Source: Candidatus Iainarchaeum sp.
GTDB lineage: Archaea > B1Sed10-29 > WALL01 > JAGHAM01
Length of the DNA stretch: 18,960 bases
NCBI GenBank assembly: GCA_021161465.1
Contig: JAGHAM010000040.1
Span: forward strand, 1 to 18,960
Direction of reading: 5' to 3'
Under the pieces are notes generated by a model that saw only the letters and a list, made by a program, of their open reading frames with translations, was not told where the DNA came from and did not search any database. Positions 7,955 through 8,668 of the stretch are shown here, one piece after another. A program made the translations under genes and the position numbers. The number at the start of each line of letters is the position of its first letter. Positions within the stretch are counted from its first letter, which is position 1.

Positions 7955-8040
7955 TGGGCCCAGCCAGAATTCAGCCGAAGCTTCGAACTGGCGAGCTTCT
8001 GCACGTCAAGCAGACGTCCTAACCACTAGACCATGGGCCC
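7955..8040 (-). tRNA. tRNA-Val(GAC) with a 13-nt T-loop intron
   Basis: The 5' end is at 8040. The acceptor stem is GGGCCCA/TGGGCCC, 7 of 7 paired. The D-arm is GTCT...GGAC. The anticodon stem is TCTGC/GCAGA with loop TTGACGT, so the anticodon is GAC (Val). The T-stem is GCCAG/CTGGC, and the discriminator A73 is at 7955. No CCA is encoded. The T-loop region has 20 nt instead of 7. Removing 13 nt after position 59 restores TTCGAAT and gives a 73-nt mature tRNA. The intron can form a UUCG-capped BHB-like fold. A TATA box lies about 34 nt upstream. Confidence 0.9.
7964..7976 (-). other. 13-nt intron in tRNA-Val, position 59/60
   Basis: The proposed intron follows A59 and precedes T60 (T60 at 7963? 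by count the intron occupies the 13 nt between the TTCGAA of the 5' exon and the T before CTGGC). T54-T57 can pair with CTGA of the intron (one C x T mismatch), with three-nt bulges AA^G and AT^T and a C-TTCG-G cap. Edges could shift by 1-2 nt if another T-loop sequence is mature. Confidence 0.7.
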
Positions 8041-8078: not shown

Positions 8079-8160
8079 TTGTTGCTTTTTCCTAATAGAA
8101 GTACTCCCTGTGACTCTACGAAAGTAAGATAGTGTTATTCTTTTAATACTTCCTACAAGC

Positions 8161-8208
8161 GGATTGTGTAGCAATCCTCTCAGGGGTAAAGGGGGTGAAA
8201 ACCCCCTT
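8161..8208. repeat. Two strong hairpins downstream of tRNA-Ala
   Basis: GGATTG/CAATCC (8161-8166 with 8172-8177) and a perfect 8-bp stem, AAGGGGGT/ACCCCCTT (8189-8196 with 8201-8208), capped by GAAA on the plus strand. They start 3 nt past the tRNA-Ala 3' end. The rest of the gap (8079-8160) is A/T-rich and shows no gene. A role in 3' processing or termination is possible; a small structured RNA cannot be excluded. Confidence 0.5.
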
Positions 8209-8224
8209 AGTGGACTCGGCGGGA

Positions 8225-8288
8225 GTCTCCACCCATTCCAAGGGGGAAGGGCTTATAAGGGAGGAGGGAATGTGTCCCTCCTCCTTAT
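8225..8288 (-). other. Intron 3 of tRNA-Ala (T loop, 59/60), 64 nt
   Basis: Bulges are AA^A and AC^T. The central helix is TTC(A) with (G)GAG, with one A x G mismatch and one T.G pair. Inside, a 13-bp G/A-rich hairpin with one bulged C (8287-8275 pairing toward 8270-8257) is followed by a second, smaller hairpin. Removal gives T-loop TTCAAAT. Confidence 0.85.
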
Positions 8289-8310
8289 TTTGAACCCGCG
8301 ACCTCTCCCA

Positions 8311-8330
8311 GTTTGTTCCTATAGTAGGAA
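8311..8330 (-). other. Intron 2 of tRNA-Ala (anticodon loop, 37/38), 20 nt
   Basis: The canonical position. Bulges are CG^T and AC^T. The central helix is TTG(G) with (A)CAA, so one of its four positions is G x A. The inner stem is TCCTA/TAGGA with loop CTA. Removal gives loop TTGGCGT. Confidence 0.85.
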
Positions 8331-8345
8331 CGCCAAGGGAGTGCT

Positions 8346-8383
8346 ATTGGAGCTTCTGAATGTCTTGCAAACATTCAGAAACA
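8346..8383 (-). other. Intron 1 of tRNA-Ala (D arm, 22/23), 38 nt
   Basis: A textbook BHB: central helix TGGA (8389-8386) with TCCA (8351-8348), bulge AG^T (8385-8383), bulge AT^A (8347-8345), and an inner stem of 12 bp (8382-8371 with 8363-8352, one T.G) with a 7-nt loop. Cutting after the second base of each bulge restores a perfect D-stem. Confidence 0.9.
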
Positions 8384-8417
8384 CTTCCAGGTTGAGCTAC
8401 GAGCCCACAAAACCATA

Positions 8418-8639
8418 TCAAGGCGATATGAATACTATATTGTCTCCACGCACCAGCATGGAGCCTACCTTGCTTATTACTTTACCTTCTTCAAGTTCTT
8501 CTGCTTCATCCAGCACTATGTTCATGTGAACATCAAAGGCTTTCAGCTTCCCTCTAAGCTCTTTCTTGCCCTTGAGCCTTACAAGGACTGTTTTATCCAC
8601 GTTCTCGTTTAAAAAATCAAAAGGTCTTTCTACTGTCAT
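8418..8639 (-). CDS. Archaeal Sm-like protein (SmAP/LSm)
   Basis: 73 residues, the typical length of archaeal LSm. The Sm1 motif spans about residues 15-48 (VLVRLKGKKELRGKLKAFD, then HMNIVLDEAEE). Sm2 is at the C-terminus (GSMLVRGDNIVFI), with the RGD loop that binds uridine-rich RNA in heptameric rings. The ATG is preceded by CAGGTG (8645-8650), a good ribosome-binding site. A TATA-like AATATATTTAAG (8669-8680) overlaps the end of minD, so LSm can be transcribed alone or with minD. In many archaea LSm precedes rpl37e; here the next gene on the strand is tRNA-Ala. Confidence 0.93.
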   Translation of the reverse strand: MTVERPFDFLNENVDKTVLVRLKGKKELRGKLKAFDVHMNIVLDEAEELEEGKVISKVGSMLVRGDNIVFISP

Positions 8640-8668
8640 ATGAGCACCTGACTAATATTTTCAAGGAG

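Follow-up and report, generated by a model that had tools for sequence, protein, structure and literature searches.

A triple-intron tRNA-Ala(GGC) gene and families of T-loop introns across the tRNA genes of a Diapherotrites-like archaeon

Archaeal tRNA genes with multiple bulge-helix-bulge (BHB) introns are known in Thermoproteales (Sugahara 2007/2008; PMC4390854, PMC4090602), where ~70% of tRNA genes are interrupted, as cited in PMC11291895, and reviews state three introns per gene as the maximum (PMC4390854, PMC4033280). Large-scale intron transposition (Fujishima 2010) was recognized, according to passages of PMC4090602 and PMC4033280, from very similar introns across isotypes, which were read as gains. 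Main-text passages of PMC11291895 report that in the Asgard archaea Atabeyarchaeia and Freyarchaeia 92–95% of tRNA genes are interrupted, many at non-canonical positions and over half by multiple introns; shared intron families, a T-loop preference and the word "endonuclease" do not occur in those passages. Here we describe a tRNA-Ala(GGC) gene with three introns on the minus strand (8406–8211) of the first 18,960 nucleotides (nt) of contig JAGHAM010000040.1 (assembly GCA_021161465.1), referred to as the window, and the interrupted tRNA genes of the genome it comes from.

Like the Thermoproteales genes, this one uses insertion points already known in archaea (22/23 and 59/60). The setting differs: the lineage is DPANN, every tRNA gene found is interrupted, position 59/60 dominates, one gene has four introns, and the splicing endonuclease is of the alpha4 type rather than the (alpha-beta)2 type of Thermoproteales. 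Compared with the Fujishima 2010 transposition as those passages describe it, the introns here target the T-loop above all, their ends are complementary to the invariant UUCR, there are signs that the T-stem moves along, and compound introns are built from repeated modules. Near-total interruption at non-canonical positions recalls the passages on Atabeyarchaeia and Freyarchaeia (PMC11291895), which are Asgard and not DPANN. ARMAN/Micrarchaeota with an epsilon2 enzyme are likewise DPANN with non-canonical tRNA introns (PMC12397907), whereas the endonuclease here (EndA) is a single-domain alpha4-type protein without the ARMAN-specific loop. We found no paper on DPANN or Diapherotrites tRNA introns as a subject in the open-access literature. 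Multiple BHB tRNA introns, position 59/60 and large-scale intron transposition are already known, in Thermoproteales and in other archaea (PMC4090602, PMC4033280); as far as that literature was searched, the DPANN setting, the dominance of the T-loop with its sequence rationale, the interruption of every gene found, the four-intron gene and an alpha4-only enzyme are new. Taken singly, Ala(GGC) is an ordinary multi-intron tRNA; the genome-wide pattern is the unusual part.

Anatomy of the tRNA-Ala(GGC) gene

Removal of 38, 20 and 64 nt from the 196-nt gene left a 74-nt cloverleaf that ARAGORN called as tRNA-Ala(GGC). Its exons lie at 8384–8406 (acceptor 5′ strand and D-arm to nucleotide 22), 8331–8345 (nucleotides 23–37, with the anticodon GGC), 8289–8310 (nucleotides 38–59, with the T-stem 5′ strand and TTCAAA) and 8211–8224 (nucleotides 60–73). 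Orthology supports the gene independently: the spliced sequence is identical at 62 of 74 positions to Ala(GGC) of our reference relative, G001, which belongs to the same family and another genus. Isotype, anticodon, and the number, sizes and positions of the introns all agree with the original prediction, which had been made from the letters of the window alone. The unspliced gene was detected by neither ARAGORN nor Rfam, and a permissive Rfam threshold across 8150–8500 returned chance matches only.

That prediction had also given each intron a BHB-type fold, and it was correct in all structural respects save that intron 3 is relaxed. Intron 1 (8346–8383; 38 nt at 22/23 in the D-arm) forms a strict BHB by motif score and minimum free energy fold, with all four pairs of the 4-bp central helix and the 3-nt bulges that had been anticipated. 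Intron 2 (8311–8330; 20 nt at the canonical 37/38) makes three of four central pairs and all three in both flanking helices. Intron 3 (8225–8288; 64 nt at 59/60 in the T-loop) needs a 4-nt 3′ bulge to complete its four central pairs, which makes it a relaxed BHB with a three-way junction rather than a strict one, and the junction contains a stem-loop; its 3′ end, TGGA, pairs at all four positions with U54–A57. The whole unspliced RNA folds at −87.8 kcal/mol (z = −6.0 relative to dinucleotide shuffles), much more stably than expected by chance.

The source genome is a draft metagenome-assembled genome of 976 kb in 40 contigs, 93% complete (~7% missing). A search of it found no intact Ala(GGC) copy, which had been named beforehand as the observation that would count against the gene, and Ala(CGC) and Ala(TGC) are interrupted too. 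A split (trans) tRNA was considered and rejected, as the 196 nt hold all exons in cis, and so was a pseudogene. We regard it as highly probable that 8406–8211 functions as a gene for tRNA-Ala(GGC) and that its T-loop intron is a copy of a mobile family found in the T-loops of nearly all tRNA genes of the genome, a membership invisible in the window by itself.

The nearest named relative is a Candidatus Diapherotrites genome (59% identity in one protein, from one gene), so that the lineage appears to be Diapherotrites-like DPANN, an informal placement from that gene, and neither Thermococcales nor Thermoproteales, the two groups mentioned at the outset. Ala(GGC) of G001 has a single 28-nt intron, in the same place as intron 2 (37/38), and lacks those at 22/23 and 59/60. 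The latter two would therefore most simply be gains on the source lineage.

T-loop introns across the tRNA genes

Rfam gave only 6–7 good tRNA matches in the source genome, compared with 29 in G001 and 13–40 in other relatives of the same order, because the tRNA genes are interrupted; counts are also low in G009 (17) and in G012 (15), a genome of another family within the class. The intact T-loop pattern GKTTCRAAYCY occurs at 9 sites, equal to its control of 9 and hence at background, against 28 in G001 (control 13) and mostly 20–49 in other relatives of the order and class. We assembled an inventory by searching for GGTTCRAA and for a pattern specific to proline, running BLAST with two intron families and examining targeted stretches, which makes it near-complete rather than exhaustive. 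It holds ~43 tRNA genes, every one with at least one intron. T-loop introns, 13–321 nt long, are present in 37 of them. They are absent from Asn, Tyr, Leu(UAA) and Pro(UGG), which have introns at other places; by our reading, Cys has an 11-nt insert in the T-loop, and initiator Met (iMet), compared with G001, has 15 nt inserted in the D-arm. Lys(CUU) (C30:89004–89256) has four introns, in the D-loop and at 30/31 (a perfect BHB), 37/38 and 59/60; the boundary of the D-loop intron is approximate, but an insert is present at that place in the D-loop of G001 too. Automatic splice alignment over-splits compound anticodon and T-loop introns, and we make no claim for their inner boundaries.

At a clustering score threshold of 50 (shuffled maximum 30), 30 of the 37 T-loop introns fell into two homologous clusters, family A (n = 14, including Ala(GGC)) and family B (n = 16). 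Intron 3 of Ala(GGC) thus has homologues in 13 other tRNA genes. Both families are spread over unrelated tRNAs, with many cross-tRNA copies 89–100% identical: a 78-nt query of the family A intron with T-stem edges matched the window copy at 99%, Lys(UUU) at 94%, Ala(CGC) at 91% and Ser(GCU) at 89%, and one 75-nt query matched both Gly(TCC) and Gly(GCC) at 100%. Family A shows compensatory changes at 7 of 23 predicted pairs (stem-loop 1 and T-stem), and the same modules, in arrays, make up the long T-loop introns, which reach 321 nt. Highly similar introns in distinct tRNAs that are absent from the relative's orthologue are the pattern by which intron transposition is recognized.

Could these introns be ancestral and have been lost in G001? 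Related T-loop introns do occur in G001 Leu(GAG), orthologous to the source Leu(GAG) intron, and in three genes of G012, so the family is older than the split. Recent spread is nevertheless evident from introns that are near-identical between tRNAs (Gly TCC, Gly GCC), we found no similar intron sequence in most same-order relatives, and the T-stems of three genes without T-loop introns are unchanged. We judge loss in G001 very improbable. It is plausible that the intron type of G001 Leu(GAG) was the donor.

An artefact of assembly or binning through chimeric repeats might be suspected in a draft genome whose contigs end inside repeats. The introns, however, lie in dozens of genes on many contigs, the exons are complete and colinear with those of orthologues, gene order is conserved with G001 and other genomes show parallel cases, and we consider an artefact exceedingly unlikely.

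The T-loop as insertion site and the splicing endonuclease

The 3′ ends of T-loop introns are usually TGRA, TGRG or CGRA, complementary to U54-U55-C56-R57. All four positions pair in 30 of the 37 introns and at least three in every one; the rates of four of four pairs are 4.7% for other windows within these introns and 14.6% for shuffled tails. The end tracks position 57 in several cases: Gln(CUG), with G57, has an intron ending CGAA; Val(UAC) and Gln(UUG), also with G57, make only three of four pairs. The three G012 introns, in Leu(CAA), Val(CAC) and Val(GAC), are near-identical to one another, and there UUCG loops go with intron ends CGRA.

Such tracking would need ongoing selection for excision, and it bears on the possibility that the inserts stay unspliced in decaying genes of a symbiont that imports host tRNAs. 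Host dependence is common in DPANN, the group to which the lineage belongs; the compound insertions are large, up to 321 nt, and splicing here is a prediction. On the other hand, pairing persists in the T-stems of all 37 genes (4.6 of 5 pairs or more), acceptor and anticodon arms match the orthologues, every tRNA gene found is affected, and intron ends follow position 57 in most cases. Import of host tRNAs in place of splicing seems to us very improbable.

Splicing would then proceed by the archaeal EndA cutting the three BHB junctions of the Ala(GGC) transcript, after which the exons would be rejoined, presumably by the ligase RtcB. In the T-loop, the central helix would be formed by the invariant UUCR (54–57) paired with UGRA or CGRA at the intron 3′ end, and the outer helix would be supplied by the T-stem. 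The T-loop being near-invariant among tRNAs, an intron with such a 3′ end should be removable from any of them, and the T-loop may serve as a generic landing site.

Searches with PF01974 and PF02778 found one endonuclease, a single-domain alpha4-type protein of 170 amino acids (L016, 1474–1986, minus strand), colinear with M. jannaschii EndA (1A79) and, by our reading, with the expected catalytic residues. The same searches and the alignment revealed no CSL/ASL-like insert, ARMAN-specific loop, second subunit or fused units. Nearly all relatives in the class, including G001 and G012, have the same single type. A second, weak PF01974 match (L017, a frame of 372 amino acids) was read as a TruD pseudouridine synthase and set aside.

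According to PMC4033280 and PMC12397907, alpha4 and alpha2 enzymes handle canonical BHB motifs only, and the cutting of relaxed motifs takes an (alpha-beta)2, epsilon2 or loop-bearing enzyme. With an apparently strict EndA and relaxed introns, either this accepted rule does not hold in this genome or a divergent subunit escaped detection. An alpha-beta or epsilon-type subunit could do the work, one that has either diverged strongly or has its gene in the missing portion of the assembly: relaxed BHBs are cut by (alpha-beta)2 and epsilon2 (PMC4033280, PMC12397907), the genome is incomplete, and a very divergent beta subunit might escape PF01974 and PF02778. Those profiles, however, find one protein, as they do in G001 and G012, each with just one short protein of this alpha type; G012 also has T-loop introns, and a joint chance absence across several genomes is unlikely. 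We think a hidden subunit unlikely, while leaving it a substantial share of the probability.

The spread of the introns may have left traces in the exons. Across 19 orthologue pairs with G001, 23% of T-stem positions changed, compared with 9% in the acceptor stem (Fisher p = 0.00016; paired Wilcoxon p = 0.02), and the T-stems of Asn, Tyr and iMet, which lack a T-loop intron, changed at 0 of 10. Intron-bearing Leu genes share GCGAG stems, whereas intron-free Leu(UAA) retains the GAGGG of G001 Leu(UAG). G57 in G001 corresponds to A57 in the source in Lys(UUU), Glu(UUC), Arg(UCG), Leu(UAG), Ser(GCU), Ser(UGA) and Met. The T-stem changes fit co-conversion of the flanking exon with the intron. The most likely route of spread would be in the DNA, where T-arms would recombine or undergo gene conversion with one another and adjacent T-stem bases would be carried along.

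We put forward, tentatively and as a reading that falls a little short of probable, that a plain alpha4 enzyme without a specificity loop excises dozens of relaxed, three-way-junction T-loop introns, contrary to the enzyme–intron rule, and that these introns are small selfish elements homing on the universally conserved TPsiC arm with co-conversion of T-stem bases. Several points weigh against the account of splicing and spread as a whole. The sole EndA found is of a type reported as strict (PMC4033280), and many introns here are relaxed. Family members are not independent in the count of complementarity to positions 54–57, and the unpaired Fisher test counts the two bases of a stem pair as if each were independent. 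T-stem change could reflect co-adaptation to the intron end instead of co-conversion. The genome is a draft of 40 contigs, several ending within intron repeats. Finally, we infer the splicing, the enzyme and the mechanism of transfer, and observe the gene anatomy, the orthology, the families, the complementarity and the T-stem replacement.

If the genome-wide pattern is read correctly, introns would have invaded the tRNA genes of this small DPANN genome more completely than in any case we found described. Most such genes escape standard tRNA finders, and genomes of this kind can therefore look tRNA-poor. With a donor, recipients, T-stem tracts and two lineages, the genome would offer a clean system for the spread of tRNA introns, and the rule of enzyme–intron co-evolution becomes directly testable in biochemistry with one protein and one RNA.

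Neighbouring genes and further introns

tRNA-Trp(CCA) (C4, ~19617) has an anticodon intron with CTGA/GATGAT motifs, which resemble the box C/D guide of Trp introns in other archaea, together with a 28-nt T-loop intron. An apparent tRNA-Ile(UAU), an anticodon unusual among archaea, lies on the minus strand at C40:52792–53222, with a compound T-loop intron of 321 nt. A third module family (AACCGCAAAATCGGTT...GGTGT hairpin GCACC) occurs in large compound anticodon-loop introns of Ser, Thr and Ala tRNAs. Contigs C2, C5, C20, C25, C32 and C34 end within Thr or Ser tRNA genes or introns; these repeats therefore probably fragment the assembly. In another genome (G008:C17, ~199–226), intron-like modules and tRNA 3′-end repeats stand in tandem downstream of an intact Leu(CAG).

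In the window, a family-B-like module (8150–8209, minus strand; stem-loop GGGGGTTTTCACCCCC plus CCTGAGAGGATTGCTACACAATCC, read directly) lies directly past the Ala(GGC) 3′ end, outside any tRNA; it recurs within the T-loop introns of Gly(CCC) and Thr. Further on is tRNA-Val(GAC) (7955–8040, minus strand), with a 13-nt T-loop intron at 7969–7981, supported by an Rfam match of 55.1 bits that includes the T-loop insert and by splice alignment to G001 Val(GAC). The order Ala(GGC) then Val(GAC) is common to the source genome and G001. On the other side, an LSm/Sm-like protein gene (8407–8642, minus strand), read by eye, ends about a dozen bases upstream of the Ala(GGC) start, and the two are possibly co-transcribed.
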